Shown here piece after piece: positions 4,724 through 57,499 of a DNA stretch of 64,000 nt. The notes beneath the pieces were generated by a model, which was given only the letters and a program-made list of their open reading frames with translations, searched no databases and had not been told where the DNA came from. Every line of letters begins with the position of its first letter. Positions within the stretch are counted from its first letter, which is position 1. Position numbers and translations under genes: made by a program. Source of the DNA: a virus; IMG/VR virus record IMGVR_UViG_3300005253_000054, positions 36,284-100,283 of that record; one strand, given 5' to 3'.

Positions 4724-4802
4724 TGTTTGATTACTAGATATTTTTGGTTTCGTTGTTACTCTGTTACTGTGTATGAACTTTATTTTTTGGAAGGGGTTTG
4801 TC

Positions 4803-7464: not shown

Positions 7465-7655
7465 CGGATGAGGAATCTAAACGATTCGAGAAACAGAAAA
7501 TCCCGTTTGGTGAATTCGAGAATCTTACTGTTGACAAGATATTTTTCAATGAAGAGTTAAGAAGTCGATTGGAATGGTACGCGGATGAGGAATCGTTTGT
7601 AGACAAATTGAGGCGGTACTTAAATTCAGATAGGGTGAAGAGGTTATTACGATGA
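7461..7655 (+). CDS. small protein, DUF3820-like pattern
   Basis: A 64-residue protein with KIPFGEFENLTVDKIFF followed by RLEWYADEESFVDKLRRYL. This resembles the short DUF3820-type phage proteins (PFG.y.g.t...I...YL.w). Role unknown. Coupled at both ends by ATGA overlaps between the MazG-like cluster and the polymerase. Confidence 0.55.
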   Translation: MTDEESKRFEKQKIPFGEFENLTVDKIFFNEELRSRLEWYADEESFVDKLRRYLNSDRVKRLLR

Positions 7656-9235: not shown

Positions 9236-9436
9236 ATGAAAGTTGGGAAAGAAGTTAGTGTGACTCCAGTATGTCAAGGGTGGTGTAGTGTGTTTGCTAC
9301 AAATTTAGTTCCATTAACGGTATCAATACTTGGTAAAACGAAATTAGAAGAAAAATCACAAGTGGAATTTGCTAAAGAAGTTTATGAATGTTATCGACAG
9401 AAACAAGCCAAGGAACGTGGAGAATTAGAAGATTGA
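9236..9436 (+). CDS. small hypothetical protein (66 aa)
   Basis: ATG one base after the previous stop. The end (FAKEVYECYRQKQAKERGELED) is a basic-acidic helix. No recognised family. It overlaps the probable TTG start of the helicase. Confidence 0.5.
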   Translation: MKVGKEVSVTPVCQGWCSVFATNLVPLTVSILGKTKLEEKSQVEFAKEVYECYRQKQAKERGELED

Positions 9437-14281: not shown

Positions 14282-14296
14282 CCGAAAGGATTGACG

Positions 14297-16138
14297 ATGC
14301 CCCCAGAACTCTATCGTAAATACCGACCTACCAAATTCTCAGAGGTATTAGGTCAACCTGAAGCAATCAAGACCCTAAACGATTGGGGCAAGCAAAAAGC
14401 GATACCCCACTTCCTGCTATTCACAGGCCCTAGTGGGTGTTTGCGTGGGGATACGAAGATATTTGATCCGGTGGATTCTAGTGATTTGTCTATTCGGGAG
14501 CGTTGGAGGATTGGTCATCCTTTCCATGTTTTGTCGAGGAACGAGGATAACAGGCTGGTAGTGGCGGAAGCGATGCCACCGGTCCGCCATTCTCCAGATT
14601 GGATGTATCGTGTAAAAACTTCTGAATCGCTTTTTTACGTAACGTCCGAACACCAGTTCCTCGTTGACACTGGTGAGTACCTTTCATTGAGGGAACTTTA
14701 CGCTCGGAGATTCGACGGAGTCCATCTTCTGACCACTTGGGACATTTCCCAAGCAATTCAACACCAAGATGCTCACCATTGTTTGCAAACAAGATTAGAT
14801 TATTCGGATCGTTATCGGTCTTATCCCCGTTTTTATGATGAACGACTTCCGATTCAGTCAGATATCGATTCAAAATACGCTCAAGCACCAAACGATGTTC
14901 TAGGACGTAACCGTTTCTCGCATTTGGATGTTTTGGCATCCGTATCAAAACATAACCATCCCCGTCAATTACACGACCACCTTTCCAGGCAGGATTATCG
15001 ACACCACGTTGGAAAGAATACTGTGGACGAATTTGGGTGTTTGAACGTTTCAACGATTCACGAACGTTTTGACGTTTTGTCTTCAGACGTTTTGCGATTT
15101 GTTTCTGAGTCCAACCGTCTTGATACATGCCCGAAACTAACTTGTCCCGTTCTGGAGTCCAAATACGACGCCTGTGTGGATAGAAGCCTTTTGGCATTGT
15201 CTTCTCCTTGTTTTGATAGGACCATATTCTCTAGTACCATTATACAAGATATCTCCCAAACAAGCAAGCAGCCCTACTATGATTTTCATGTTCCTATTTA
15301 CGAGAATTATTGGGCTGGTGGTTTGATTCATCATAATTGTGGCAAAACGACTTTAGCCCGAATTCTTCGGAAGAAACTCAAGTGTTCCGACCACGATTTT
15401 ATAGAGGTGAATGCCGCCGAGACAAACGGGATTGATATGGTGCGGTCTATCGCGAGGGTAATGGGCCTTGCACCGATGATGGGCAGGTGTAGGGTGTGGC
15501 TCATAGATGAGGCTGCTAGGCTCACTAAGGATGCTCAGAGTGCTTTCCTCAAGATGCTGGAGGATACGCCCGAACACGTCTATTTTATGCTGGCGACAAC
15601 TGATCCTCAGAAGTTACTACCCACGATTATGACAAGGGCATCTGAGATTAAGGTAAAGGCTTTATCTTCTAAGGATATGACGGATTTGGTTAGAGGCGTA
15701 CGTCATCAAGAGGAGCAAGCCAATTCTGAAGAGGATTTGGTTGGAATATCCGATGACGTTTGTGATAAAATTATTGACATAGCAGACGGATCGGCAAGGA
15801 AAGCATTGGTCCTATTGCATCAAGTGATTGGTGAAGGGGACGAGGAGAAGCAGTTAGCGGTCTTGCAACAGGCAGATAGCAAGCAACAGGCAATTGAGAT
15901 TTGCCGATTGCTAATGAAAGCGAATACATCGTGGAAGCAGATGGCTAAGCTGCTTAGAGCCGTTGACGACGAGCCGGAGGGTATCAGGCGGCTGATGTTG
16001 GCTTATATGACCAAGGTAGGGCTGAGTGGTAATAAGAGGGCCATCGTGTGTCTTGAGGCGTTTGAGGAGCCTTATTTCAATACTGGCAGGGCAGGATTGG
16101 TTTTGTCCTGTTGGAATGTAATCAATGGAGGTGGATGA
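14297..16138 (+). CDS. clamp loader ATPase (RFC/DnaX-like) interrupted by an intein
   Basis: Exteins total about 313 residues: LYRKYRPTKFSEVLGQ (N-terminal clamp-loader signature), Walker A GPSG|CGKTT split by the intein, Walker B CRVWLIDEAARL, sensor 1 FMLATTD, and TRASEIK where SRC usually occurs. It loads the clamp from 3710. The ATG at 14297 with gaaagga upstream is preferred over TTG 14291. ATPase activity requires removal of the 300-residue intein. Confidence 0.9.
   Translation: MPPELYRKYRPTKFSEVLGQPEAIKTLNDWGKQKAIPHFLLFTGPSGCLRGDTKIFDPVDSSDLSIRERWRIGHPFHVLSRNEDNRLVVAEAMPPVRHSPDWMYRVKTSESLFYVTSEHQFLVDTGEYLSLRELYARRFDGVHLLTTWDISQAIQHQDAHHCLQTRLDYSDRYRSYPRFYDERLPIQSDIDSKYAQAPNDVLGRNRFSHLDVLASVSKHNHPRQLHDHLSRQDYRHHVGKNTVDEFGCLNVSTIHERFDVLSSDVLRFVSESNRLDTCPKLTCPVLESKYDACVDRSLLALSSPCFDRTIFSSTIIQDISQTSKQPYYDFHVPIYENYWAGGLIHHNCGKTTLARILRKKLKCSDHDFIEVNAAETNGIDMVRSIARVMGLAPMMGRCRVWLIDEAARLTKDAQSAFLKMLEDTPEHVYFMLATTDPQKLLPTIMTRASEIKVKALSSKDMTDLVRGVRHQEEQANSEEDLVGISDDVCDKIIDIADGSARKALVLLHQVIGEGDEEKQLAVLQQADSKQQAIEICRLLMKANTSWKQMAKLLRAVDDEPEGIRRLMLAYMTKVGLSGNKRAIVCLEAFEEPYFNTGRAGLVLSCWNVINGGG
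14490..15197 (-). CDS. HNH homing endonuclease encoded antisense within intein 3
   Basis: A 235-residue protein on the minus strand, the only convincing minus-strand gene in the window. Residues 12-50 look like a helix-turn-helix (WTPERDKLVSGMYQDGWTQK, then IAKRLKTKRQNV). Residues 66-140 are an HNH_3-type core: GVDNPAWKGG, GYVLIRMPKHPNA, VLEHRLVLERIL, VVHHKNGDKTDNDPNNLILF. The Shine-Dalgarno aaggag lies 7 nt before the ATG, and a near-consensus promoter at 15239-15267. The 3' part is antisense to Hint block B and neighbours. By analogy it cleaves inteinless alleles and drives intein spread. Confidence 0.9.
   Translation of the reverse strand: MPKGFYPHRRRIWTPERDKLVSGMYQDGWTQKQIAKRLKTKRQNVRESLKRSNTQIRPQYSFQRGVDNPAWKGGRVIDGDGYVLIRMPKHPNARNGYVLEHRLVLERILNRYLTESEVVHHKNGDKTDNDPNNLILFANNGEHLGVELLGKCPKWSEDGLRRISERKVPSMKGTHQCQRGTGVRTLRKKAIQKFLHDTSNLENGGPVASLPPLPACYPRSSTKHGKDDQSSNAPE
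15239..15267 (-). promoter_or_regulatory. antisense sigma70-like promoter for HNH gene
   Basis: On the minus strand TTGCTT (15267-15262), 17 bp, TATAAT (15244-15239, perfect). The ribosome site and ATG of the HNH gene follow about 40 nt downstream. Located inside intein coding sequence. Confidence 0.65.
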
Positions 16139-19938: not shown

Positions 19939-20253
19939 ATGTTAGTATTGAGTAGGAAAAAGAACGAGAGAATCGTTATCAACGATAACATCACGATTGT
20001 CGTGGTCGAAATCCGGGGTGACAAGGTACGATTAGGAATTGAAGCTCCTAAAGAAGTCCCTGTACATCGACAGGAAGTGTTTGATGCGATTAAGGCGGGT
20101 GAGCGGAAAGTTCAAGAGGAAGAGATTGCAAGACGGTTAGCTCTCGACCCGCTAGATTCAAGGTCAATCGAGGAGGCAGTTGGTCCTGCTGAAGAATTGA
20201 CCGACGAGGAAATTATTGAAGGGGAAAGACAATGGGAGATGGAAAAAAAGTAA
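19939..20253 (+). CDS. csrA: CsrA carbon-storage regulator homologue
   Basis: The first 55 residues are a textbook CsrA: MLVLSRKKNERIVIND, then VEIRGDKVRLGIEAPKEVPVHRQE. CsrA dimers bind GGA motifs near mRNA ribosome sites and alter translation. The phage version is longer (104 residues) with an acidic extension after the core. Its own leader has aaggag before the ATG, so autoregulation is possible. The sequence resembles planctomycete CsrA. It may reprogram host carbon and surface traits, which is inference. Confidence 0.9.
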   Translation: MLVLSRKKNERIVINDNITIVVVEIRGDKVRLGIEAPKEVPVHRQEVFDAIKAGERKVQEEEIARRLALDPLDSRSIEEAVGPAEELTDEEIIEGERQWEMEKK

Positions 20254-29935: not shown

Positions 29936-30205
29936 ATGGAGATTCTTATTTTGTTTATGCCATATTTCATCGAATGGTTGATGAAATGTCAAGAGGATCG
30001 TAATCGTGATGATATTGAGGCTGGATTGAATAATCCTGGGATTAGGGAATGGTTTGCTATTCGGGCAGTTATTAAGAGGAGAAAGAATCTTAAAGGCAGA
30101 GATTTGCGTATGACAGTGCGTGATAGTTTTGCCGCATTAAAAGAGCTTGAACCAGAGGATGTACAGGAACTTATGGCAGCGGTTCCGTTGTTGCCTCAAT
30201 CTTAG
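29936..30205 (+). CDS. hypothetical protein (89 aa)
   Basis: ATG 29936 preferred (gaggtg upstream) over GTG 29933. Hydrophobic start (MEILILFMPYFIEWLM) followed by charged helices. No family recognised. Confidence 0.55.
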   Translation: MEILILFMPYFIEWLMKCQEDRNRDDIEAGLNNPGIREWFAIRAVIKRRKNLKGRDLRMTVRDSFAALKELEPEDVQELMAAVPLLPQS

Positions 30206-30218
30206 GAGAGGAGATCCT

Positions 30219-30995
30219 ATGAAACCGCTATTTACGTTCTACCGTCTCGGCTGGCCGCTCATTCCGGTTGCCATCGTATTGGTGTGGGCGTTCCACGCCC
30301 CGGGCCAATCGTTACCTCAGCCCGGCGACACCCCCGCTCCGGTGGTTGATCTAGTTGAGCACAACGAACTGGTTGCCAAGATTACTGGACCAACCACGGT
30401 TAGGGTTGGTTCAGTTATCACTTTCAACATCTTTGGTTCCAGTGAAGAGGGACAAGAGCTTGTATTTCGCCCCCACGTCCCTGACGATGCGATTATGTGG
30501 GATACTGGCGGTGAGGTTATCTACGCATGGGTGGCCCGTCTAGGGCATTACAAGGCAATCTGGAGCGTTGAGACGGACCATGCGGCAGATATAAAGATTT
30601 GGGCGTTTGAGGTTACGGAAGATGATCCCGATGATCTGCCACCTAATGACAATGGAATTACGGAAGTTATGGTAAGGGAATGGCTCAATAATGTGCCAAA
30701 AGCAGTAAGGGATGAGATCATAGAAGATCCAATTACGGGTGAGAAGTATACACGACAAGAGGCGGTTGGTAAGACGTTCTCACAGATTGGTGAGACTGTT
30801 AAGGCTCTTGGTTCTGTCAGGGCGGCTAATGTTATGCTCACTACTGGATTAGTGGCGTCGTTCGGACCAAAGGCGAAAGAGTGGCAATCGTTCGCAGTGT
30901 TGGCCGATGCTGCCCTAAAGGAGTTGGAGGATGATAAGGTGGGTGCTGCTGAATATGGTCAAGTGCTTTTGTTGATAGGGGGTGTTTTACAATGA
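30219..30995 (+). CDS. secreted or anchored protein with Ig-like domain
   Basis: 258 residues. N-terminal hydrophobic segment (WPLIPVAIVLVWAFHAPGQS) is a signal or anchor. Residues about 50-125 read like an Ig/PKD-type beta domain (ITGPTTVRVGSVITFNIFGS, then a YKAIWSVETD strand). The C-terminal 120 residues are helical. Sits in an envelope-directed gene group; start set by aggagaggagatcct. Confidence 0.6.
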   Translation: MKPLFTFYRLGWPLIPVAIVLVWAFHAPGQSLPQPGDTPAPVVDLVEHNELVAKITGPTTVRVGSVITFNIFGSSEEGQELVFRPHVPDDAIMWDTGGEVIYAWVARLGHYKAIWSVETDHAADIKIWAFEVTEDDPDDLPPNDNGITEVMVREWLNNVPKAVRDEIIEDPITGEKYTRQEAVGKTFSQIGETVKALGSVRAANVMLTTGLVASFGPKAKEWQSFAVLADAALKELEDDKVGAAEYGQVLLLIGGVLQ

Positions 30996-31516
30996 CGGAT
31001 TTTTCTAATCAGTTACGGGATATTGCCATGCGACCGGCTGTTTCTCGTAAGGATCGTGATTGTTTCCGTGGGGCTGCTACCAAGATTGAACATCTCAAGA
31101 TGGCCCTCGCTCGTTGGATGAAACATCCACCTGCGGAATGTGTTCCGACTCAAGCTATTGTGATGGGAAAGCGTGCTTTGGAGGGTGAAGATTTGGCTGA
31201 TCTGGATGTGGTGACTCGTGCTTGTAAGGCTGAGACCGAGATTGAACGCCTCCAAGGAATCGTCGATAGTCTGCCAGTTGATGCAGAAGGTGTGGCGATT
31301 GTTCCAGGTCGTACCGTAGCATTACGCCATAATACAGTGATAAAAAGTGGTACTGTCGATTTGCATATTCGTGGTACAAAGGTATATATTGTTGCCAATG
31401 TTGCCACCGATGCAATCCTACTGTACGGTGAACATCACGGGACTTACGGAATTGCAAAACCTAGTGATTGCTATGGATCAATAGAAGCCGCTGAAGCCGT
31501 AAAGGAGAAAGTATGA
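30992..31516 (+). CDS. hypothetical protein (174 aa)
   Basis: Cys and His scattered in the N-terminal half; helix ETEIERLQGIVDSLPVDAEG resembles the end of the protein at 14060. The C-terminal part is beta-rich. ATGA overlaps on both sides. No family recognised. Confidence 0.55.
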   Translation: MTDFSNQLRDIAMRPAVSRKDRDCFRGAATKIEHLKMALARWMKHPPAECVPTQAIVMGKRALEGEDLADLDVVTRACKAETEIERLQGIVDSLPVDAEGVAIVPGRTVALRHNTVIKSGTVDLHIRGTKVYIVANVATDAILLYGEHHGTYGIAKPSDCYGSIEAAEAVKEKV

Positions 31517-32421
31517 CAGATCGAGAAGTTATCGAACTGCTTGAACGAACGGGGCATTTGCGTCGTCCGTTTGGTGCTATTCGCCAAAACGTGCCGCGTT
31601 GCGACGAATCAGATTATGATGCTCTTACACTTGATAGTGATACAGTGGTGTATTCTATTCTCAGTTATCAAGACTTTATGATGGAACGTCTTGACCCGTT
31701 GTGTCTGAAACATCATTCTCGCCCGGCATTATTAGATGGTCATGTTGGACCAGCGACCAGAGAGCTATTCGAGTTGCCACGTTGCGGCTATCCCGATTAC
31801 GGGGAAGAGGTACAGCCTGCTATTGGTAAGGGTAGTTGGGCAGGTTGTCATGGCATAGGTGATTTTCATGCTGCAACAATTTATGTAGATGAAACCAATA
31901 TGTCAGCATTCCTAAAGCCCATTTTTCAGAAGGTATGGGATAGATCGGTAGCGGCCTATACTGATATTGGTTTGCAGTTTACCAGAACGGATGATGAAAA
32001 ATCTGCAAATATCCACATGTCCTTTGAGCTTGGGCGTAGACCTTATATTGGATTGGCCCAAGTTGGAAGGAATCAGCCCTGTAAAGGTGATCAGATTTGG
32101 TGCAAATTCCTAGCATCATATCAACCAGCTAAATTGTTAGAGTATTGGACGCGATTGAACATGCACGAATGGGCACACCTTGCAAGTTTGCGGCATACTA
32201 GGGGTGGGATAATGAATCCTAGTATTACGCCTGGTCTAGCATCTTGGAAAGACGATCCATCGGAACCGATTCTAAAGGGACTCTATGGTGGTGTGCCAAT
32301 ACCTGATAATAGAACAGAGGAGTATTGGGTTACACAATGCTTTAAGTCTAATAGAGGCAGAGAGTCTTGTGTGCCATTGGTGCCGCCTATACGTGTTGAT
32401 GAGGAGCCTTGGGATGCGTAA
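31513..32421 (+). CDS. metzincin (matrixin-like) metalloprotease with Cys switch and PG-binding-like prodomain
   Basis: 302 residues. An N-terminal domain resembling PG_binding_1 (YSILSYQDFM, LLDGHVGPATRELF) leads into PRCGYPD, the pro-peptide Cys switch of matrix metalloproteases. The catalytic zinc motif is HEWAHLASLRH, matching HExxHxxGxxH except Ser for Gly; GGIMNPSI supplies the Met-turn. No signal peptide is seen, so release by lysis or carriage by the virion is likely. Possible roles: virion maturation, envelope breach or host-surface cleavage; all are inference. Confidence 0.75.
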   Translation: MTDREVIELLERTGHLRRPFGAIRQNVPRCDESDYDALTLDSDTVVYSILSYQDFMMERLDPLCLKHHSRPALLDGHVGPATRELFELPRCGYPDYGEEVQPAIGKGSWAGCHGIGDFHAATIYVDETNMSAFLKPIFQKVWDRSVAAYTDIGLQFTRTDDEKSANIHMSFELGRRPYIGLAQVGRNQPCKGDQIWCKFLASYQPAKLLEYWTRLNMHEWAHLASLRHTRGGIMNPSITPGLASWKDDPSEPILKGLYGGVPIPDNRTEEYWVTQCFKSNRGRESCVPLVPPIRVDEEPWDA

Positions 32422-32914
32422 TTTGATATTAGCAATTGTGTTGATCTGCCCATCGTTAGTGATGGCTGGTCCCTTATTAGATGCCATTGCAATATCAGAG
32501 AAGAGAATGGGACCAATCGAGAGAGCCATTGCGTTGGCATCTTCCAATGTTGAGGTTTTCGAGATTGCAACAACCAGCGGCAGTAAGGTTTTATTGCAGT
32601 TAGAACAACCAAGCATTCTGGAACCTGAGAAGAAACTGGATGTTGATTTATCGACTGGTCCAATTCTCAGGCCAGACGTAGGTTGTAAGTTATCAACTTG
32701 TGGTATGTGCGTCTTGAATAGTTTAGCGAATCACGGGCAGAGTTACGATTATCTGAAGACGTTGACCAACACTGAGCAGATGAGATTGCATTACCGATTA
32801 CATAATGAGTCTGGTTTTGAGGGGACTGTTGGAACGGTTCAATGTGTTACCAATAGTAGTGGTGGAGTACGAACGCAAAAGAAAGGGCCTTTGCGGAGGT
32901 TGTTTGGTAAGTAA
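32414..32914 (+). CDS. secreted Cys-containing protein (166 aa)
   Basis: Signal peptide MRNLILAIVLICPSLVMAG. Later Cys-rich CKLSTCGMC and a final Cys (VQCVTN). The start overlaps the protease stop. Family not recognised. Confidence 0.6.
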   Translation: MRNLILAIVLICPSLVMAGPLLDAIAISEKRMGPIERAIALASSNVEVFEIATTSGSKVLLQLEQPSILEPEKKLDVDLSTGPILRPDVGCKLSTCGMCVLNSLANHGQSYDYLKTLTNTEQMRLHYRLHNESGFEGTVGTVQCVTNSSGGVRTQKKGPLRRLFGK

Positions 32915-32933
32915 TATCATGGGAGATAACAGG

Positions 32934-33635
32934 ATGAATACCCTTATCAATTTTATTTTGTGGCCATTTTGTTGGTTGGATAAACACAATCCAAATAGTA
33001 TAGGTCGTTTTCGTGGCCAGTTAGTTTGTTGTTGCAAAAGATGTGGGAAATTGCTAACCTGTTTGCTTTTAATGGTTTTGCTATTCGTTTCGGTTTCTCA
33101 GGCAGGAGAATCCCGCTATGTCACAACTCCACCTGATGTTGTGGTGGCTATGTTGGATGCCGCTGCTGTAATAATTACCGACACGGTGGTTGACTTGGGT
33201 TGCGGTGACGGTCGTATTCCGATTATTGCTGCCGCCAAGTATGGGGTCAGGGCTATAGGCGTCGAACTTGATTCAGAGATAGCGACGATTGCTAAACAGA
33301 ACGTAAAGCGTAATAACCTCGATCATTTGGTAGATATTCGGCAAGGTGATATACTACAAATGAAGTGGGGCGAGTCACGGCAGGTTGTAACTGTTTATCT
33401 TGATCCTGAATTATTGCAGAGATTAAGACCTGTTTTTGATAAATTGCCGATTGGATCGAGGATTGTTAGCTACCAACACCCCCTCTTTGGGTATAGCCAA
33501 GGGAAGGTTATTGAATTGTTTGGGCATCGTTTGTATCGGTATCGAGTAATTCAGAAGATCCGAAAGCAAAAGGTCTGCGGTCCAAGGGGTTGTACGTACG
33601 TGGATGTAGCTTACAAGGTGATTGAGGGTTTTTGA
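32934..33635 (+). CDS. membrane-anchored SAM methyltransferase
   Basis: 233 residues from ATG 32934 (gggag upstream; ATG 32919 also in frame). A Cys-rich patch (LVCCCKRCG) and a hydrophobic segment LTCLLLMVLLFVSVSQ at about 40-55 suggest an anchor or signal. Then a class I methyltransferase: TTPPDVVVAMLD, VVDLGCGDGRIP (motif I), AIGVELDSE, VTVYLDPELL. Substrate unknown; the layout resembles bacterial methyltransferases with a signal segment. Its envelope placement is odd because SAM is cytoplasmic. Confidence 0.65.
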   Translation: MNTLINFILWPFCWLDKHNPNSIGRFRGQLVCCCKRCGKLLTCLLLMVLLFVSVSQAGESRYVTTPPDVVVAMLDAAAVIITDTVVDLGCGDGRIPIIAAAKYGVRAIGVELDSEIATIAKQNVKRNNLDHLVDIRQGDILQMKWGESRQVVTVYLDPELLQRLRPVFDKLPIGSRIVSYQHPLFGYSQGKVIELFGHRLYRYRVIQKIRKQKVCGPRGCTYVDVAYKVIEGF

Positions 33636-33850: not shown

Positions 33851-34036
33851 ATGGAATTTGAAAAATCGTGTAAGTGCAAAGCTGTAGCACACACTAGTTC
33901 AGTGGTCATCAGGACGACAAAAGAAAACGGTAGTTATGGGATGGATATTACACACCATCCAGGACCAGTATGTGATAAATGCAAAACACCGTGGAGACCT
34001 AGGAAGATGAACATGCGAGTTGAAAGAACAAACTGA
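33851..34036 (+). CDS. small zinc-ribbon protein (61 aa)
   Basis: CKCK near residue 7 and CDKCKTPW near residue 41 suggest a zinc ribbon. Precedes and overlaps the large terminase. Function unknown. Confidence 0.55.
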   Translation: MEFEKSCKCKAVAHTSSVVIRTTKENGSYGMDITHHPGPVCDKCKTPWRPRKMNMRVERTN

Positions 34037-35570
34037 AGAAGATATTAAGTTATTAGAAGCCTACAGGGAGAAAGCGTCAAACAGTTTTCTCACCTTCTTA
34101 AAGGGTCTTACGATACCCTCGGCTACGGGTCCGCAAGTATTTGATGATTGCTTGTACCCTTTCCAATTGGAATTCTTCCAAGACGTAGCACCTGCCCTAG
34201 AGGCCGTCAGATTGGGCCACATGCCACCTAAACGACGATTCTGGGTGGAGCGTACTAAGAAGGCAAGTAAGGATGGGGACATAGCCGTGTGTCTCTTGTG
34301 GCTGGTTGCCTTTGCTGTTAGACCTACTCGATTCCAAGCGGGTGCCGCCGACCGAGAACAGGCTGCCATTATCAGGGATAGGATAACGGATATTCTGCAT
34401 TGGAATCCGTGGCTAAATGAATTGGTTACAGTCCATACTTGGAACGTCAAATCTGAGAATGATTTAGCTACTTTGAGGATACTGGCTGCTGATATTGCGG
34501 GCAGCCACGGAGCTACACCAGACCTATTGGTGCTTGATGAATTGTCCCATATTACCAAGTGGGAATTTATTGAGAATCTTATGGATAATGCTACAGGCGT
34601 TCCCCAAGGCGTAGTGATTGTGGCAACGAATGCGGGATTCAAGGGAACGAAAGCAGATGTGTTACGTAAGAATGCAATCGAATCGGAGGATTGGTATACA
34701 CATTTTTGGCAAAGACCTAGCCCGTGGTTAAACAAAACGGATTTAGCTGATGCGAAGAGACGTAATCCAGCGACTAGATATAATCGTCTTTACTGGGGTA
34801 AGTGGGCTAGTGGCAAAGGTGATGCCTTGGATGAGGAGGACATAGATCGGTGTTTTTCTTATGGGATTAGGTCATTGGTCCGCCCGGAAGAGGGATGGCA
34901 ATACATCGCTGGTTTGGATCTTGGAATCAAAAACGATCATAGTGGGCTTGTTATTCTAGGTGTAAACGAAAGGGAAGGGGTCATACGGACGGCTTGGTAC
35001 AGGGATTGGGCCCCAAACCCCAAGACGGGAGAAGTCGATTTGGTAGACGTACAGGATACTTGTGAGGCGATGAGCAAAGCATTCGGCATTTGGTGGTTTG
35101 GTTTTGATCCTCACCAAGCTACATTGATGGCACAGCAGTTGCGGCGTAAACGAATACCGATGCAAGAGATGGTTTTTAATGGTAAGAACCTAGACGATAT
35201 GGCCCAATCATTTTTGCAGGTTGTAGAGAATGGTGTGCTTCAATGTTATGATGATGGGGAAGGTACGTTAAGAAGAGACTTTGGAAAATTCAATATAGTA
35301 GAAAGAGCTAACGGATTCAAGTTGGAATCGGTAAGTGATGAATATGGTCATGCCGATGTAGGAACGGCATTGGTTATATGTTTGCCGAAAGCAGTGTCCA
35401 TGTTGGAAGGCAAGATTGGTGGTTTGCTTCCCGGCGATGTGTTGGTGGAAGAAAACGATAGTCCATTAACTGAAAAAGAGGTTGACGATATGCCAGAGGA
35501 ACTGCGGGATATATACAATTCGGTAGAGGAACCAATAGGTACGGGTGTTGATGATTGGCAAACTTTTTAA
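34020..35570 (+). CDS. terminase large subunit
   Basis: 516 residues from a TTG start. The ATPase half has ERTKKASKDGD in the Walker A position (deviant) and PDLLVLDELSH as Walker B; VVIVATNAGFKG is the coupling motif. The nuclease half starts YIAGLDLGIKNDHSGLV (first acidic motif), then WWFGFDPHQAT and EYGHADVGTALV. It cuts and packages DNA into the prohead. Confidence 0.85.
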   Translation: MKEQTEEDIKLLEAYREKASNSFLTFLKGLTIPSATGPQVFDDCLYPFQLEFFQDVAPALEAVRLGHMPPKRRFWVERTKKASKDGDIAVCLLWLVAFAVRPTRFQAGAADREQAAIIRDRITDILHWNPWLNELVTVHTWNVKSENDLATLRILAADIAGSHGATPDLLVLDELSHITKWEFIENLMDNATGVPQGVVIVATNAGFKGTKADVLRKNAIESEDWYTHFWQRPSPWLNKTDLADAKRRNPATRYNRLYWGKWASGKGDALDEEDIDRCFSYGIRSLVRPEEGWQYIAGLDLGIKNDHSGLVILGVNEREGVIRTAWYRDWAPNPKTGEVDLVDVQDTCEAMSKAFGIWWFGFDPHQATLMAQQLRRKRIPMQEMVFNGKNLDDMAQSFLQVVENGVLQCYDDGEGTLRRDFGKFNIVERANGFKLESVSDEYGHADVGTALVICLPKAVSMLEGKIGGLLPGDVLVEENDSPLTEKEVDDMPEELRDIYNSVEEPIGTGVDDWQTF

Positions 35571-36050: not shown

Positions 36051-39000
36051 ATGGGTATTATTATACTACCAAATCCGAAACCTACTTTGGGTCGCCATAC
36101 TCGTAATGCTAGGCAGGCTAAGAATCCGTCTGCATGGCAAGGTTTGGTTGGTGCTTGGTTTCCAATACTTGGTAATATGGGCCGCACGTTACGAGACATC
36201 AGCAGTCGCCACAATCACGCGAGCAACAACGCGACGTGGGTAGTCGGCGACGAAGGGCCAGAGCTAAAATTTACGTTGGGATCTCAGCAGTTTTTGGAAC
36301 CAAGGAACAACATACCCGATTCGATTGCATCCTCTGGCACGATTGCGATGCGGATGTCATGGTTGAGTGCATCAGGCGTACAATGGGCTTGTTCACACCC
36401 GTCAGGCGACAGAATATACATCAGGAAAAACAGTTCTAATTGGGCCTGGAGGCTCGGATCGTCGGCGTTAAACACAACGGCCGTATCGACCGTCGCGGGT
36501 TTGTACGTTACTGTAGTCCTTGCCTGGGATGGGACAACCGGGCGATTCTATGTCGACGGGAAAGAAGTCGACAGTAACACTTATACCGGTTTGAGTGCCC
36601 CACTCTCTGGTCCATTTTATTTTGGCCGGTTATCCACTACCTATTCGTCAATGTCGTTGCAATGGGCGGCGATATGGGATCGAGCACTTACCGCTTCGGA
36701 AATTAAAGATTTTTCTGACAATCCCTTCTGGCTAATCACACTAGCGACGAAAAATATTGCAGTATCAGGTGTTGTTGATGTATCGTCATCGAGTATCAGT
36801 ACGTCTTCACAGTCAAGTATATCAACGTCAAGTGAATCATCCTCTTCATCAATATCAACATCAAGTGAATCCTCTTCATCTTCAGTTAGTACAAGTAGCC
36901 AGTCATCTATTTCGACTAGTTCTGAATCATCGTCATCGTCGATTTCGACATCTTCACAATCATCAATAAGCACCTCTTCTGAATCTTCATCGTCAAGTAT
37001 CAGTACCAGTAGTCAATCGAGTATTAGCACATCATCAGAATCATCTTCATCATCAATTAGTACGTCAAGTCAGTCATCTATTTCGACTAGTTCTGTTAGT
37101 TCATCATCCTCAATTAGTACGTCAAGTGTTAGCTCGATTAGTACGTCTTCGGCTTCGTCAATAAGTACCAGTTCTAGTTCAATTAGTACATCATCCAGTT
37201 CAATTAGCACATCATCATCCTCGATCAGCACATCATCTAGTTCGATTAGCACGTCGAGTATATCAACAAGTAGTTCATCCATCAGCACTAGTTCGATCAG
37301 CACATCATCCAGTTCGATTAGCACATCATCTAGTACATTCCTTGATAGTAGTGCATCTAGTATATCATCATCATCGTCAATTAGCACAAGTAGTATATCA
37401 TCCATAAGCACATCATCAGAATCATCATCATCATCAATTAGCACAAGTAGCCAATCAAGTATAAGTACATCTTCAGAAAGTTCATCGTCTAGTATATCGA
37501 CGTCAAGCCAGTCAAGTATAAGCACATCTTCTGAATCATCTTCATCATCAATTAGTACGTCAAGTCAGTCATCTATTTCTACCTCGTCAGAATCATCTTC
37601 ATCATCCATAAGCACAAGTAGCCAATCAAGTATTTCGACTAGTTCTGAATCATCATCGAGCAGTATTAGCACAAGTAGCCAATCATCTATTTCTACCTCG
37701 TCAGAATCATCTTCATCAAGTATTAGTACGTCTTCTCAGTCAAGCATTTCTACCTCTTCAGAATCCTCGATTAGCACATCTTCAGAAAGTTCATCGTCTA
37801 GTATATCCACATCAAGTCAGTCAGTTGATTCATCATCATCTTCGATCAGTACATCTTCCGAATTATCTAGTAGCTCGATTAGTACATCATCAATTAGTAC
37901 CTCTTCGGAATCATCACTGTCAAGTTCGTCAAGCACGGGATTATTAAAGTATCCCGTTAGCAAGACAGTTACAAGAGTAGGACCAGCAAGTAAAACTATC
38001 ACGATTATAGGTCCATCAAGTTCTGGTGTGACCGTAGTGGGACCGGCGAGTAAGACGGCAACGGTTCCATTGAGCAGACTTTTTGATGAAGAGGATTCGT
38101 CTGTCAGTAGCCAATCTAGTATATCAACGTCGTCTAGTAGCTTGAGTAGTGTTTCTACTTCGTCGGACAGTTCGTTATCTAGTATATCTACCTCTTCTGT
38201 TTCTTCATCTTCTTCAATAAGTACCTCTTCTGTTAGTTCAATAAGCACAAGTTCTGAATCATCATCCAGTAGTATTAGCACATCGTCGGAATCGTCAATA
38301 AGTACGTCGAGTGTATCGAGTGTTTCGACATCAAGTCAATCCAGTATAAGCACATCATCTGAATCGTCTTCATCATCAATTAGCACAAGTAGTCAATCAA
38401 GTATTTCTACCTCGTCTGAATCGTCTTCATCATCAATTAGTACCTCTTCTCAGTCATCTATTTCTACCTCTTCAGAATCATCTTCATCAAGTATTAGTAC
38501 GTCTTCTCAGTCTAGCATTTCAACGTCAAGTGAATCGTCTTCATCAAGTATTAGTACCAGTTCTCAGTCAAGTATATCAACGTCTTCAGAGTCGTCTTCC
38601 TCATCTGTCAGTACATCAAGTGAGTCGTCCGTAAGCACATCTTCTGAATCATCTTCATCATCTATTAGCACATCTTCTCAATCAAGTATAAGCACATCCT
38701 CTGAATCATCCATAAGCACATCATCTGAATCGTCTTCATCGTCTATTAGTACCTTTTCTGAATCAAGTATTAGTACTTCTTCTGAATCCTCAATAAGTAC
38801 GTCGAGCCTATCAAGTATAAGCACATCATCTGAATCATCTTCATCATCCATAAGCACATCTTCTGAATCCTCTTCAAGTAGTATTTCTACCAGTAGTCAA
38901 TCATCAATATCGACTAGTTCTGAATCTTCATCCAGTTCTATTAGTACATCTTCACAATCGAGTATTAGTACATCAAGTCAGTCATCAATTAGCACAAGTA

Positions 39001-42000
39001 GCCAATCAAGTATTTCTACTAGCTCGGTCAGTTCTACAAGCAGTCAATCGAGCCCGTCAAGTATAAGCACGTCAAGTAGTTCAGTAAGCAGTATAAGTAC
39101 ATCCTCGGTTTCTACATCATCATCGTCAATAAGTACCAGTTCTAGTTCTATCAGTACGTCTTCATCCTCGATTAGTACATCTTCCGATTCCAGCCCGTCA
39201 TCGGTTAGTTCTAGTTCGATTAGCACATCCTCTATTAGTTCACCATCATCTGATATAAGTACATCTTCAGTTAGCACATCCTCCAGTTCCGTCAGTTCGG
39301 TAAGCAGTATAAGTACATCTTCAGTTTCTACGTCGTCATCTTCGATTAGCACATCCTCAATAAGCACATCATCTAGTTCGTCTAGTGTTTCTACGTCTTC
39401 ATCCTCGATTAGTACATCAAGTGTCAGTTCGATTTCCACGTCGTCAATTAGTACAAGTTCTTCATCTATTAGTACGTCATCCGTTTCTAGTAGTAGCAGT
39501 TCTCAATCCAGTAGTTCGTCAATTAGTACATCTTCGATAAGCACGTCATCATCCTCAATCAGTACATCATCATCCTCAATCAGTACATCTTCGATTAGCA
39601 CATCATCCAGTTCAATTAGCACATCATCCACCCTTGATCCTGACGTAGACTTTACATACTTCAGTACAAATCAAGCAATAAACGAGTATGCATTCGAGCA
39701 AGCTTATTACAATATGCCTGCCGATGAATTGGTTGATTTGTTGCATGAGTTAGGGCTCAATTCTGGCACGGAAACTCTGGTACAATGGCAGACGGTTGTA
39801 GACAATGAGGTTGATAGACAGTCCGATAATATTGTATTGAGCGGGCTAAGGCCAGATGGTTTATTGCATATTTTGCTGACTGCTTTTTCCAATAATGGTT
39901 TTTCCTTATTGAATGAATCTGGTAATGGAGCCATTGATAGAATCAAGAGTTCTTTAAGAAGCAGCTTTGATTTGGTTCCAGCAAAATTCTTAACTGCGAA
40001 CACCGTGGCAAATATACGATCCAACGAGAACTTTAGATCGGGGGATATAACCGATACCCCTAAATATTGGTTGTCATGGCCCATGCCACCTGATGAACAC
40101 AATATTATTGAGACCCCTTCGTCTACTTTGGTGCCAATGGTTTTTGTTACTAGGTACCTTACCGGTGTAGATAGTTCTGATGCCGATACTCCAGAGGATC
40201 TCTTGGGTTTCTTGGTGGATCACCCAGAAGGTTTAGCAGTAGCTTTGGGAAAATGGGATCGTGTGCCATTTAACTATCAGAAGCTAGTGTTTACTGATCG
40301 GTCAGGAAATTTTACACTCACATTGAATGGGCGGACAACAGGGCCAATAGACGCTTCTTTACTTTTTGCAGGTGAGGTTACTGATGGTGTGAACAATGAT
40401 CTTCGTACAAAGGTGCGTGAAGAGTTGGCGGCGTTGAATGTTTCTTTCCCTGCTGATGTACCCCCATGTTCTGTATTCTACAATGGCAATAGTGCCAGTC
40501 CCGCATTAGAGGTTTACTTTTTCGGCACTCTTGATAATGTATACCCAACGGGTTCCTTCTATTCCGCAGAGACTAGCATGGAAAATACTATGACATCTTC
40601 AATAGATGGTGGTAGTATTACAATTACACAAGTAGTAGGTAACGACCAATTCCATTTTCTGGATTTCTTAGGCGATGGTGGGGTGCCCTTGGTTGATTCT
40701 ACAGGCAAATCTATTAAGTCCATGAAGTATGACAATCATATCAACTTCATAACGACATACTTAAGGACGTGGCTTGGTGAATACGATGATCTTGGTGGAA
40801 AATTGGATGATTTCATTCTGGATTTTGAGGGGCATATATCGACTTTCCATATTTCTAGGGATTACTATTATGGTGGTGCTGATGATGCCGCCAACGTGGA
40901 GGCGACAGCAGATAAGTTACGTAATGAGAACATATTCAAGACGGGTTTTTGGAAAGATAAGTTACCGGATGACTTGCATGATTCCTTTGTTGATATAAGG
41001 ACTTGGTGGAATGATGCGAGTACCGGTGGAGAACCAGTGACTAGATCGCAGTTTGATGGTGTTTGTCGATTACAACGGGCAGCCTTTGCGGATGATATTT
41101 TTCAGATTGTTTTGGAGACTTTTCCAAATGCAAAGAATAGTAATTTTTTTGCTAGTCCACAAACTTCGCAATTTCCAATAGGCAATCTTTCTAAAGGGAA
41201 TGTACATTCGTTGCAGGGTTTTTCAGGTACGCACAGTTCACCTGTCAACTATAACGGCCGCCCCTGGGTCAATGACATAGGTGATTCGGCATTGGAAGAG
41301 CCTCCAGATAAAGCGGCAAATCGTAGCTGGTCACCAGCCCACATGATCCGATGGAGATACATTCAGAGAAACTCGTCCGGTATCGTAACGATGGATTTTT
41401 GGACTGACGCAGAGCGTGCCAGTGATCCAATTTTGGGAGGGGATCAAACTATAGATGGGTTGAGTGTTGGGGATCGTGTTAGATTGTTTGCAAACACTAC
41501 TGCTGATCGTGGCATTGTTGGTAGTTTTTTGGCTAATAATGTAACAGATCAATTCTTCGGTTTTCCAATAACTGAGATTGGTACCCATACCGTAGATTAT
41601 GGCGATGGTGCGGAGTCACGTGATTTTATCAAATACCAAGACACAGAAACCAGTGCATTGGGGGTGGTTGATGGAAAGATATCTCCTAACAGATTTGGTA
41701 ATGGTACTTTTCTAACTACTTTGAAAGCCTGGGAAGGTTTTCTTTCAGATTTGCTTAATGTAAGATCATCAGCAAGTGCTTACGATATTCCTATACAATC
41801 TTGGTGGATAAATTGGGGTCAGTTCCCCGAATCGGAGGATAGACAATTTGGAAGATACAAAACACAGTGGAGAGCCGAATCGTGGTTCCATTCTGTTTTA
41901 TGTGGTGAGTTAGATAATCAGATACTTTTTGGTCGGGGTTGGTTGAATGAGAATGATCATTTTCCATCGGTGGCTGAGGCTGCCTTTACTTATACCTTTG

Positions 42001-42338
42001 ATGATATCACTGATTGGGCTCAATTCGATACTGCTCGACAAGAGATAAATAATTTGTTCGGATTTGTTTCCAGTGAGATAAGGCCATTGTCGATTAACTT
42101 TGAGCCTTTGAGTATGCAAGGTCAAGAGTATGTGATTAGTGGTGTCAGCTTGCCAGATAGTAGTAAGTTGTTTAGAATTACTTTGAAAGATGTGGGCGGT
42201 TCGGTGGGACTGTTACCGTTAGTAAGTAACGATTTTAGGGACTTCCGTACTGTTAGTGGTTTGATCGTTCGTGTACCGGGTCAGATTGTGAGCGGGAGTT
42301 TCGAGGACAATGGGTGGTGGGTGAAGATTTCAGCTTGA
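36051..42338 (+). CDS. giant Ser-rich virion protein: LamG-like domain, ISTSS linkers, C-terminal enzyme-like domain
   Basis: 2,095 residues, the largest gene here. Residues about 20-235 form a LamG/concanavalin-like domain (AWDGTTGRFYVDGKEV, WDRALTASEI). About 244-629 and 684-1194 are low-complexity repeats of the ISTSS and SSESS type, split by a Val-Gly-Pro segment (TVTRVGPASKTITIIGP). Residues about 1195-2095 are a globular domain with DDFILDFEGHIS and QSWWINWGQFPE, reminiscent of TIM-barrel glycoside hydrolases, though no family is certain. Likely a tail or surface adhesin that binds or digests host surface polymer. No ribosome site is obvious; the start abuts the preceding stop. Confidence 0.75.
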   Translation: MGIIILPNPKPTLGRHTRNARQAKNPSAWQGLVGAWFPILGNMGRTLRDISSRHNHASNNATWVVGDEGPELKFTLGSQQFLEPRNNIPDSIASSGTIAMRMSWLSASGVQWACSHPSGDRIYIRKNSSNWAWRLGSSALNTTAVSTVAGLYVTVVLAWDGTTGRFYVDGKEVDSNTYTGLSAPLSGPFYFGRLSTTYSSMSLQWAAIWDRALTASEIKDFSDNPFWLITLATKNIAVSGVVDVSSSSISTSSQSSISTSSESSSSSISTSSESSSSSVSTSSQSSISTSSESSSSSISTSSQSSISTSSESSSSSISTSSQSSISTSSESSSSSISTSSQSSISTSSVSSSSSISTSSVSSISTSSASSISTSSSSISTSSSSISTSSSSISTSSSSISTSSISTSSSSISTSSISTSSSSISTSSSTFLDSSASSISSSSSISTSSISSISTSSESSSSSISTSSQSSISTSSESSSSSISTSSQSSISTSSESSSSSISTSSQSSISTSSESSSSSISTSSQSSISTSSESSSSSISTSSQSSISTSSESSSSSISTSSQSSISTSSESSISTSSESSSSSISTSSQSVDSSSSSISTSSELSSSSISTSSISTSSESSLSSSSSTGLLKYPVSKTVTRVGPASKTITIIGPSSSGVTVVGPASKTATVPLSRLFDEEDSSVSSQSSISTSSSSLSSVSTSSDSSLSSISTSSVSSSSSISTSSVSSISTSSESSSSSISTSSESSISTSSVSSVSTSSQSSISTSSESSSSSISTSSQSSISTSSESSSSSISTSSQSSISTSSESSSSSISTSSQSSISTSSESSSSSISTSSQSSISTSSESSSSSVSTSSESSVSTSSESSSSSISTSSQSSISTSSESSISTSSESSSSSISTFSESSISTSSESSISTSSLSSISTSSESSSSSISTSSESSSSSISTSSQSSISTSSESSSSSISTSSQSSISTSSQSSISTSSQSSISTSSVSSTSSQSSPSSISTSSSSVSSISTSSVSTSSSSISTSSSSISTSSSSISTSSDSSPSSVSSSSISTSSISSPSSDISTSSVSTSSSSVSSVSSISTSSVSTSSSSISTSSISTSSSSSSVSTSSSSISTSSVSSISTSSISTSSSSISTSSVSSSSSSQSSSSSISTSSISTSSSSISTSSSSISTSSISTSSSSISTSSTLDPDVDFTYFSTNQAINEYAFEQAYYNMPADELVDLLHELGLNSGTETLVQWQTVVDNEVDRQSDNIVLSGLRPDGLLHILLTAFSNNGFSLLNESGNGAIDRIKSSLRSSFDLVPAKFLTANTVANIRSNENFRSGDITDTPKYWLSWPMPPDEHNIIETPSSTLVPMVFVTRYLTGVDSSDADTPEDLLGFLVDHPEGLAVALGKWDRVPFNYQKLVFTDRSGNFTLTLNGRTTGPIDASLLFAGEVTDGVNNDLRTKVREELAALNVSFPADVPPCSVFYNGNSASPALEVYFFGTLDNVYPTGSFYSAETSMENTMTSSIDGGSITITQVVGNDQFHFLDFLGDGGVPLVDSTGKSIKSMKYDNHINFITTYLRTWLGEYDDLGGKLDDFILDFEGHISTFHISRDYYYGGADDAANVEATADKLRNENIFKTGFWKDKLPDDLHDSFVDIRTWWNDASTGGEPVTRSQFDGVCRLQRAAFADDIFQIVLETFPNAKNSNFFASPQTSQFPIGNLSKGNVHSLQGFSGTHSSPVNYNGRPWVNDIGDSALEEPPDKAANRSWSPAHMIRWRYIQRNSSGIVTMDFWTDAERASDPILGGDQTIDGLSVGDRVRLFANTTADRGIVGSFLANNVTDQFFGFPITEIGTHTVDYGDGAESRDFIKYQDTETSALGVVDGKISPNRFGNGTFLTTLKAWEGFLSDLLNVRSSASAYDIPIQSWWINWGQFPESEDRQFGRYKTQWRAESWFHSVLCGELDNQILFGRGWLNENDHFPSVAEAAFTYTFDDITDWAQFDTARQEINNLFGFVSSEIRPLSINFEPLSMQGQEYVISGVSLPDSSKLFRITLKDVGGSVGLLPLVSNDFRDFRTVSGLIVRVPGQIVSGSFEDNGWWVKISA
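36780..37935 (+). repeat. Ser-rich ISTSS repeat block 1
   Basis: About 385 codons of S-I-S-T-S-S, S-E-S-S and S-Q-S-S units. Ser codons switch freely between AGT/AGC and TCN, so the protein is far more repetitive than the DNA. Confidence 0.9.
38095..39630 (+). repeat. Ser-rich ISTSS repeat block 2
   Basis: A second array of about 510 codons with the same units and codon scrambling, ending at TLDPDVDF where the C-terminal domain begins. Related arrays occur at 56523-56900 and 63250-63555. Confidence 0.9.
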
Positions 42339-43395: not shown

Positions 43396-44196
43396 ATGGG
43401 AAAAATTGCAGATATATCTGAAGTCTTACTCGAATTAGGCTTATCCTCTTCAGCAACGGATGAGGAAAGGGCTATCGCCAATTCTGCCATCATAAGAGCA
43501 GAGGCAGCGATTCGTAGACACATCTTTTATGATCCTGTTGAACGAACCAGAACCGAATACTATCCTCAATCCGAAAATATGATTCGGAGTAGGGGAGTTG
43601 TCTGGGAGACGGAAGGGGACCAAGCATTCTTAAGACAAGTGGCTAATGCCTCTGCAACCGAGTTACAGATTCAGAATATCCCTATCCGATCCATTACGCA
43701 GTTATTCGTTGATTTTGATGGTAGGGCTGGTACAAGAGCTTCCTCGTTTGCAGATTCGACATTAAAGGTAGAGGGTACCGATTACTGGCCTAACAATGAT
43801 GGGTTTGATAGTAGCGATGCTAATATCTGTAGGGATGGAATCATTCGGTCTGGTGGGTTATGGCCGACTACGCCGGGTACCGTCAAGATTGTCTATGTGG
43901 CGGGCTACACGCCCGCTGAGTTGCACGGACAGGACAATATCGTAGATGCAATGCCCATCTTGGATGCGGTCATAGACGAGGCTGTGAGGCGTACTAAGAA
44001 GGCTTTCGTGAATATGAAGAAAACGGGAGCAGGTTGGACGGCCGGGCCGTTTACGTCCGAGACGTTGGGTGATTATCGGTATCAAATCGACTCAAAACTT
44101 TCGGCTCGATTATTTGGTAGTTCGTTTGATATTACGTCAGAGAGTAAGGAGAAAATTTCTTCGTTCGTCAATTTTGGATGGTCACTTAGTTCGTGA
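43396..44196 (+). CDS. head-tail connector-like protein
   Basis: 266 residues. The helical start with repeated Ala and acidic residues (ATDEERAIANSAIIRAEAAI) and a later VKIVYVAGYTPAEL pattern are typical of gp6-like connector proteins of siphoviruses. Position among portal, neck and tail genes fits. Ribosome site weak. Confidence 0.6.
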   Translation: MGKIADISEVLLELGLSSSATDEERAIANSAIIRAEAAIRRHIFYDPVERTRTEYYPQSENMIRSRGVVWETEGDQAFLRQVANASATELQIQNIPIRSITQLFVDFDGRAGTRASSFADSTLKVEGTDYWPNNDGFDSSDANICRDGIIRSGGLWPTTPGTVKIVYVAGYTPAELHGQDNIVDAMPILDAVIDEAVRRTKKAFVNMKKTGAGWTAGPFTSETLGDYRYQIDSKLSARLFGSSFDITSESKEKISSFVNFGWSLSS

Positions 44197-44939
44197 GTGG
44201 AATACGTATAGTGGAACCAATTGAAAAAGTAGCGATGCGATTCCAAATCGTGTTTACCTATAGCTGCAATATGGCTTGCCAGTATTGCGATAGGTACGTG
44301 GATTCCTTGCCTTGGCCTAATACGGACATTACGAAAGAGGATTTAAGGCTAGGTTTAGAGGTAGTAAAGAAATCAAGAGTTCACATTAAACAGTGCCGCA
44401 TAACTGGAGGCGAGCCAAAGGTACACCCCTCCTTTGAGGAATTGGCAAAGTACGTTTTGGAAACATGGGGGGATAAAGGCAGGATCAGGACGTCAGTAAG
44501 TACGAATATGGTTCTAAAGAATCCGAGAGGATTGGGGGTGAGGTGGCAGAAATATCCGATGGCAGAGAAGAATCATGTTCCGGTAATGATTAGCCCCTAT
44601 GATTTGGGGAAACATCCAGTAAGGGGGTACACTACGTATTGCCGAGTGCAATGTCGATGTGGTAGGTTGTTTGATAAATTTGGGTTTGCCTCGTGTCCTT
44701 ATGCTGGTCCGATTGGTAGAGTATTGGGAATTGATCCTTACCAGTCCATGCCAGTCTTGTATGGTAGGCCGGATATTTGCAGGCATTGTGTGCATTCGTT
44801 GGATAGGTGGGATAGGCTTAAGATTTATAAGGATGCGTTGGCCGGTAAAATTGAATTCCCGACGAAGACATTTCGAGAAGGATTGGAAAGGTTCAAAGCA
44901 GAACCTACAGAGTTTAAGACTTTTCAGGAAAGGGTATAA
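44193..44939 (+). CDS. radical SAM enzyme
   Basis: 248 residues from a GTG start overlapping the previous stop. YSCNMACQYCDRY holds the CxxxCxxC [4Fe-4S] motif, and CRITGGEPKVHPSF contains the GGEP SAM-binding motif. Later Cys pairs (CRVQCRCG, CPYAG, CRHCVH) suggest an auxiliary cluster or zinc, as in SPASM-like enzymes. Could modify a phage or host peptide or nucleotide; the substrate is unknown. Confidence 0.8.
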   Translation: MSGIRIVEPIEKVAMRFQIVFTYSCNMACQYCDRYVDSLPWPNTDITKEDLRLGLEVVKKSRVHIKQCRITGGEPKVHPSFEELAKYVLETWGDKGRIRTSVSTNMVLKNPRGLGVRWQKYPMAEKNHVPVMISPYDLGKHPVRGYTTYCRVQCRCGRLFDKFGFASCPYAGPIGRVLGIDPYQSMPVLYGRPDICRHCVHSLDRWDRLKIYKDALAGKIEFPTKTFREGLERFKAEPTEFKTFQERV

Positions 44940-48123: not shown

Positions 48124-49236
48124 ATGAAAACTGGTAAATTTAATGTAGTTGTGGACGGTCAATGGGGTAGTTGTGGTAAGGGAAAAACCGTAACTTCATT
48201 GGCGGACAAATTCAGGCCAGAATTTGTATCAACCACTAATATGCCGAATGCGGGACACACCGCGGTATGGGATGACGGCAGAAAATTTGTGGCAAAGTCG
48301 CTACCGGTGGCGGCTATACTTAGAAAGTGGATTGCCAATCAAGGGTATAAACCAACGATCATATTGGGGGCATCTAGTGCATTCCGGGTGGAAAATCTAT
48401 TAAAAGAGGTGGAGGAGTGTTTGTTGGATGCCACAAGTCTATGGATTCACGAAAGATCCGGGGTGATGACGGACCGTCACGCCAAAATGGAGATGGGTCA
48501 GGGTGGTACTAAGCACATTGCTAGTACTATGCAGGGATGTGGTGCCTTCCTAGCGGAAAAAATAATGCGGGGGGAAGATGTGGAATTGGCGGGTGGAGAT
48601 TCCCGGTTGAGAAGGCATATTTTTCCAGGTTTATCCATGGAGTTGAATGAAAAACTGAGTTTTGATGAAACAATATTACATGAGGGTGCCCAGGGATTTT
48701 CACTTGATATTTCCCACGGAAGTCATTATCCATTTTGTACGAGTAGGGGAACTACAGCAACGCAGAACATGGCCGATATGGGGATCAACCCCAGGAAACT
48801 GGGAGATATATATTTGGTAATACGACCGTTTCCCATAAGGGTTGGTAATGTAGTAGAGGGTGGTAAAATGGTTGGATACTCAGGGGATTGTTATGAGGAT
48901 CAAGAGGAAATGAAGTGGGCCGACGTTGGTGAGATAGCCGGTGTTGGGACTGAGGAATTTAGTGGGGAACTTACCACCGTTACCAAACGGCTAAGAAGGG
49001 TATTTTCATTCTCGAAAATACAATTGAGGGAGGCAGTAGAAATAAATGGTGCAAACAAGTTGGTATTGAATTTTGCGGACTATCTAGATTGGAATTGTAG
49101 GGGTTGTGATGATTGGGAAAATCTGCCGAATATTGTATTGGATTTTATTGGGATGTGCGAGGGTGTGGCTGGAATTCCTGTTGTAATTGTGGGCACTGGT
49201 GCTAAAAATGGCGATACATGTTGGAGGAATCAATAA
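48124..49236 (+). CDS. purZ: PurZ-like adenylosuccinate synthetase homologue
   Basis: 370 residues of the PurA/PurZ fold. P-loop region VVVDGQWGSCGKGKT (residues 8-22) aligns with GTQWGDEGKGK of PurA, with Ser16 where PurA has its catalytic Asp; this swap is the reported mark of PurZ, which joins Asp to dGMP on the route to 2-aminoadenine. NAGHT (42-46) keeps the catalytic His. Other family segments include MQGCGAFLAEKI, LHEGAQGFSLDI and CTSRGTTATQNM. Its presence, with a MazG-like gene and family A polymerase, suggests Z-DNA. DatZ was not found in the window. Confidence 0.75.
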   Translation: MKTGKFNVVVDGQWGSCGKGKTVTSLADKFRPEFVSTTNMPNAGHTAVWDDGRKFVAKSLPVAAILRKWIANQGYKPTIILGASSAFRVENLLKEVEECLLDATSLWIHERSGVMTDRHAKMEMGQGGTKHIASTMQGCGAFLAEKIMRGEDVELAGGDSRLRRHIFPGLSMELNEKLSFDETILHEGAQGFSLDISHGSHYPFCTSRGTTATQNMADMGINPRKLGDIYLVIRPFPIRVGNVVEGGKMVGYSGDCYEDQEEMKWADVGEIAGVGTEEFSGELTTVTKRLRRVFSFSKIQLREAVEINGANKLVLNFADYLDWNCRGCDDWENLPNIVLDFIGMCEGVAGIPVVIVGTGAKNGDTCWRNQ

Positions 49237-56179: not shown

Positions 56180-56195
56180 ATTGGGAGTAAATATC

Positions 56196-57496: not shown

Positions 57497-57499
57497 TTG

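Follow-up and report, generated by a model that had tools for sequence, protein, structure and literature searches.

Animal pro-matrix metalloproteases (pro-MMPs; MEROPS M10A, with pro-MMP-9, -1, -2, -3 and -10 as examples) combine a pro-domain of peptidoglycan-binding-domain (PGBD)-like fold, an R-C-x-x-x-D cysteine switch placed about 126 residues before the HExxH zinc site, and a catalytic domain of metzincin fold with a Met-turn. The bacterial matrixin karilysin shares the catalytic fold, but it is a secreted protein whose latency relies on a short pro-peptide, with neither a PGBD-like pro-domain nor a Cys switch. Virus-borne M10-like proteins are also found in insect viruses (nudiviruses, iridoviruses, entomopoxviruses, ascoviruses and granuloviruses); these are viruses of animals, which likely acquired their MMPs from their hosts. 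Cys-switch latency has been described in the bacterial metzincins myroilysin (PMC9848320), mirolysin and ulilysin (PMC11674741), where a Cys of the pro-segment blocks the zinc; these enzymes belong to other metzincin families (astacin, pappalysin) and have different pro-segments. Our searches of the open-access literature yielded papers neither on phage matrixins nor on the lysis of Planctomycetes by phages.

The locus considered here lies in the window, meaning the whole stretch of 64,000 bases that was analysed (bases 36284-100283 of a 100,283-base virus record). Since matches to terminase large subunit, portal, minor head, head maturation protease and major head proteins are all present in the window, its phage is a tailed one. 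The ORF of interest encodes 302 amino acids and starts with ATG, with AAGGAG just upstream. The motifs first noticed in the DNA (PRCGYPD, HEWAHLASLRH and IMNPS, following a PGBD-like domain) are indeed there, with key residues kept in all 22 aligned family members and a predicted fold matching pro-MMPs. The gene and its parts are as follows:

31513..32421, + strand: matrixin-like metzincin zymogen gene, predicted without signal peptide (ORF, translation, 22-member family)
31519..31770, + strand: helical PGBD-like pro-domain, residues about 3-86 (predicted helices; alignment to pro-MMP pro-domains)
31777..31797, + strand: Cys-switch segment PRCGYPD, residues 89-95 (conservation; profile alignment to the pro-MMP switch)
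31798..31863, + strand: low-confidence linker, residues about 96-117 (pLDDT <50 at 101-112 and 114-116)
32164..32196, + strand: zinc-binding motif HEWAHLASLRH, residues 218-228 (H218, E219, H222 and H228 in 22/22)
32203..32217, + strand: Met-turn GGIMN, residues 231-235 (G231, G232 and M234 in 22/22; N235 in 21/22)

Searched alone, the window protein had no match in Pfam, PHROGs, NCBIfam or the PDB, and single-sequence tblastn against phages and plasmids gave nothing convincing. Querying two collections with this single protein was equally fruitless, the peptides used being poorly conserved, and fold prediction from the single sequence was useless (pLDDT 32). To find relatives, viral contigs were scanned with a pattern, in reverse complement, in which the Met-turn, the zinc motif and PRCG are spaced as in MMPs; it retrieved proteins in contigs L009 (55% identity to the window protein, 4e-97) and L004 (36%, 1e-47), together with more distant proteins having Pfam Peptidase_M10 matches. 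Profile scans of viral contigs then gave overlapping sets of 14 and 22 loci, and those of bacterial genomes two loci, one of them in the Planctomycete Thalassoglobus neptunius. Because the contig with this bacterial copy also encodes a terminase (phrog_38, 9.2e-29), the copy most likely resides in a prophage or prophage remnant. The nearest database relative, A0A6J5RTD2 of an uncultured Caudovirales phage, is a full-length family member (36% identity, Foldseek E 8.5e-25) that is uncharacterised and has no function assigned; the insect-virus MMPs are much weaker matches.

All conservation counts refer to the 22-member alignment, window copy included, in which C91, W109, C112, G180, C190, H218, E219, H222, H228, G231, G232, M234 and D248 are invariant. 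The original prediction described the switch as PRCG: its Cys and, in 20/22 members, its Arg (R90) are retained, as is D95 (21/22), but G92 occurs in just 9/22, and the family constant read from the aligned sequences is R-C-x-x-x-D, a Cys in an Arg/Asp frame, rather than the textbook form. The two other invariant Cys, C112 and C190, could pair as a disulfide, and conserved His residues outside the catalytic motif are found at H15 and H119. The residues by which a metzincin is recognised, i.e., the three zinc His and the Glu of HExxHxxxxxH and the Met of the Met-turn, are present across the family. At the turn of HExxHxx[G/N]xxH, the window copy alone has Ser (Ser225), as opposed to Gly (19) or Asn (2) in the other 21 members, and within the same motif it has A221 where 19/22 members have Gly. 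Given Ser instead of Gly or Asn at the turn, confidence in the activity of the window copy is lower than for its relatives. In four relatives found on different contigs (L043:7971-8999, L046:7995-9011, L047:7989-8948 and L048:7884-9113), one residue has been inserted into the zinc helix (HEYKGH, HEFLGH, HEQFGH), yielding HExxxHxxxxxH with the switch Cys kept in all four. The HExxxH form is otherwise familiar from dipeptidyl peptidase III.

When a 13-member profile was compared with the PDB, the top matches were pro-MMP-1 (1.1e-5), pro-MMP-9, -10 and -3, and in the alignments to pro-MMP-1 and pro-MMP-9 the switch segment and the zinc site pair up in order. The model obtained from the 22-row alignment (pLDDT 77.9, pTM 0.65) has pro-MMP-9 as its best structural match (Z 15.4, rmsd 3.7-4.0 over 198-207 residues, model residues 1-259), followed by other pro-MMPs and karilysin. 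Its predicted helices at residues 3-12, 32-37, 43-55, 57-68 and 80-86 make up a PGBD-like pro-domain that, in the model, packs as in pro-MMPs, whose own pro-domains align with the window protein starting at model residue 1 or 2. The model predicts the latent arrangement of the two domains as a unit, and a latent matrixin-like fold for the phage protein is highly probable. Modelling and conservation together suggest that Cys91 (codon 31783-31785) would sit on the catalytic zinc and hold the protease off, so that the phage protein would work like a pro-MMP, with the low-confidence linker as a possible zone of activation cleavage. The original prediction had named a PRCG Cys modelled far from the zinc as the result that would speak against it; no such model was seen, the pro- and catalytic domains superposing on pro-MMPs in one alignment, at the level of domains. 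Conservation, profile matches and predicted fold hence all support its assignment of a metzincin with an MMP-type pro-domain and switch Cys. Its peptidoglycan-binding-like domain stands as a matter of fold, but we do not accept this domain as a sign of murein binding, because the PGBD-like fold is that of the MMP pro-domain.

Compared with the systems described above, animal pro-MMPs are the best fold match over both domains. They differ from the phage protein in having a signal peptide, the structural-zinc histidines in MMP places and a Met-turn with MYP instead of MN, the phage protein having in addition its two other invariant Cys and only about 20% identity. Karilysin matches the catalytic fold (Z up to 14.9), and the likeness to myroilysin, mirolysin and ulilysin lies in the zinc-blocking Cys, which for the phage protein is predicted. 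No hydrophobic N-terminal core or secretion signal was found in the 22-member alignment, and no His/Asp cluster of the kind that binds the structural zinc of MMP catalytic domains is conserved in its S-loop region. The window protein has no Pfam Peptidase_M10 match above the cut-off and the L009 and L004 proteins fall below it, while distant phage relatives pass it. As the Pfam cut-off, structural-zinc residues and secretion signal are wanting, the protein is called here matrixin-like and is not filed as an MMP.

The view that such a protein is unusual in a phage does not survive the wider search, since dozens of viral contigs carry the trait. With five M10-like viral proteins as queries, a scan returned 55 loci, and 33 of the 44 non-redundant ORFs at these loci have R-C-x-x-x-D about 117-126 residues before HExxHxx[GN]xxH, all 33 being devoid of a strongly hydrophobic N-terminus. 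RCGLPD and MAPYYDPN recur in many of this wider set, which come from contigs as long as about 205 kb, and hhalign links the pro and catalytic parts of the five M10-like proteins, which are M10-positive in Pfam, to those of the window family (99.5%, 4.6e-23). On these two grounds, phage matrixin-like zymogens are common and not peculiar to the window phage. An unnamed, widespread phage family has the complete latent build of animal MMPs, pro-domain and Cys switch included, but no signal peptide, and has exported and thiol-active neighbours of its own; it bears on the origin of MMP pro-domains.

The genes that surround the protease in the window are these:

29936..30205, + strand: small protein with an N-terminal hydrophobic segment ending in Cys (L027 45%, 4e-22; L030 42%, 4e-16; same place)
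30219..30995, + strand: exported (signal peptide) protein of a loose upstream-partner family (homologues, family alignment, hydrophobic N-terminus)
30992..31516, + strand: unknown 174-aa ORF (ORF list; its last 4 nt are also the first 4 of the protease gene)
32414..32914, + strand: exported CxxC (CGMC) protein (sequence, L027 homologue; its ATG at 32414 overlaps the protease end by 8 nt)
32805..33635, + strand: methyltransferase, predicted exported or membrane-anchored (Pfam Methyltransf_25, 5.7e-8)
34020..35570, + strand: terminase large subunit (phrog_9, 1.4e-26)

The terminase places the protease cassette in the packaging/late region of the phage, and the overlaps of the protease gene with the ORFs upstream (4 nt) and downstream (8 nt) suggest coupled translation. 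The exported protein at 30219..30995, with homologues in L027 (40%, 9e-45) and L032 (33%, 1e-18), represents a loose family that in most members lies directly upstream of the protease, its stop mostly overlapping or abutting the protease start; in the window and L027 one extra gene stands between the two. The product of 29936..30205, whose wider alignment is weak although the Cys is invariant, has a possible holin-like role. No clear holin was identified near the window protease gene, and PHROG and Pfam scans of small membrane neighbours gained little. Such small membrane proteins are usual near family members. An r1t holin lies two genes upstream of the protease in L033 (1e-18) and another occurs in the L036 record, and L096 has a weak Phage_holin_10 match. 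The methyltransferase is kept beside several members, with homologues in L027, L032, L041 and L037.

Downstream of the protease, thiol chemistry recurs. Ten members, counted by eye and including the window with its CGMC protein (which has no Pfam match), have an exported CxxC protein just downstream or as the next exported gene. Thioredoxin (PF00085) occurs in just 3/20 phage records, each time as the gene directly following the protease, and in L063 and L089 of the wider, second group the downstream exported proteins carry CPPC or WCGPC, that of L089 matching phrog_22 thioredoxin (1.8e-5). In two members the next gene encodes a subtilase without signal peptide (L038:6343-7290 and L042:5423-6424; Pfam S8, 3e-40 and 2.5e-38), and these are the only subtilase matches in the 20 phage records; by analogy with the furin-type activation of MMPs, such subtilases are possible activators of the metzincin. 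Near the metzincin of L029 there is an exported protein with G8 and CEMIP beta-helix domains (L029:6490-8883; 5e-10 and 9e-12), and ORFs resembling it were seen by eye in L033 and L036.

The best overall explanation of these data, to which we give an even chance, is a latent zymogen that acts late to break through an envelope rich in protein. The protease would be made from the phage genome in the host cytoplasm as a zymogen, its PGBD-like pro-domain bringing Cys91 of the R-C-x-x-x-D motif onto the zinc that H218, H222 and H228 bind and so keeping the enzyme off. Late in infection the zymogen would reach the envelope through phage membrane proteins and be activated at that site, either by a cut within the flexible linker (about 96-117) or through thiol chemistry in which the exported CxxC partner perhaps takes part. 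The active protease might then cleave protein components of an envelope of Planctomycete type, such a host being putative for the window phage, and let the progeny leave. Counted in favour of a late envelope or lysis role are the protease without signal peptide whose start is joined to an exported-protein gene in most members, the r1t holin of L033, the thioredoxin/CxxC neighbours, the Planctomycete contig copy with its terminase, and the lack of matches to seven common endolysin families in the phage records. Amidase_2, Amidase_3, NLPC_P60, SLT, M15_3, Phage_lysozyme and CHAP matched in 0/20 records, a count that covers only family-bearing phages, whose records are perhaps partial and could hold divergent endolysins that were missed; controls in these searches behaved as expected. 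Counted against it are the unusual zinc motif of the window copy and the lack of a clear holin close to its gene. Taken by itself, this role is plausible at somewhat below an even chance.

The walls of Planctomycetes were for a long time portrayed as sacculi of disulfide-bonded protein (PMC2754498), an arrangement that would suit a protease encoded beside a thiol protein. Even so, Planctomycetes do possess lysozyme-sensitive peptidoglycan (PMC4432640), so that a protease alone may not lyse them and protein cleavage is perhaps one step only. The more specific proposal that phages of Planctomycetes, and perhaps of other hosts, lyse cells by means of a Cys-switch matrixin zymogen activated outside the membrane by the adjacent exported thiol protein or subtilase is speculative, and we hold it at roughly one chance among four. 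Were the lysis role true, it would amount to a protease-based exit from the host, with latency of the zymogen as its timer, for phages in which the usual endolysin families gave no match. The family also points to enzymes possibly acting on protein-rich bacterial walls.

The position of the gene lends itself to other readings. In several members its late-region location is close to terminase, portal or tail-type genes, and a virion protein needs no signal peptide, as would be expected of an entry protease carried as a zymogen in or on the particle, activated at infection and cutting host surface proteins; its tight coupling to exported and holin-like/membrane proteins rather than to tail genes makes this reading rather unlikely. 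The same proximity to packaging genes could suggest a prohead protease, the least likely of the rivals, considering that a separate head maturation protease match (57497-59215, phrog_80, 4e-10) stands beside the major head protein and that another is found in L027. We know of no metzincin prohead protease, and the identification of the window protein as the head maturation protease was rejected, one being annotated elsewhere in the window.

The exported and thiol-active neighbours and a copy in a bacterial contig could also be accommodated by a moron, namely an accessory secreted protease from which the host, infected or lysogenic, would profit and which is released by lysis or a non-classical route. 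Against this are the missing signal peptide and the conserved local gene order in many phage contigs of very different size, and we regard it as quite improbable. It is similarly improbable, if a shade less so, that the window copy has degenerated or lost its activity: S225 and A221 in HEWAHLASLRH do set it apart from its relatives, but zinc ligands, Glu, Met and switch Cys are all retained and the frame is intact.

Several other features of the phage record were noted. The ORF at 48124-49236 is PurZ-like, its best NCBIfam model being amino_Aden_PurZ (1.1e-65, 221.8 bits, below the 300-bit cut-off), with GQWGSCGKGK at the place of the PurA Asp, and the window phage may have 2-aminoadenine DNA; the polymerase ORF at 7652-9061 is a better fit to Pol I than to DpoZ. 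Late-region proteins encoded at 36051-42338 and 56181-56921 hold very long Ser-rich repeats (SISTSSxSS), one of these proteins having 2095 amino acids and no Pfam match. The ORF at 4773-5315 combines a signal peptide with a C-terminal PEP-CTERM-like tail (PIPEPSTFTLAALGFLSLAFYGRWRRK), for which a host exosortase would be required, and a CsrA homologue is encoded at 19939-20253 (TIGR00202, 2.5e-22, above cut-off). Intein-like insertions occur in a helicase-type ORF (9388-12759) and in a clamp-loader-type ORF (14291-16138). In the part of the record outside the window (L002:6596-18012), a run of glycosyltransferase- and methyltransferase-like ORFs with a radical SAM protein was recognised by eye, and a second radical SAM ORF lies within the window at 44193-44939.
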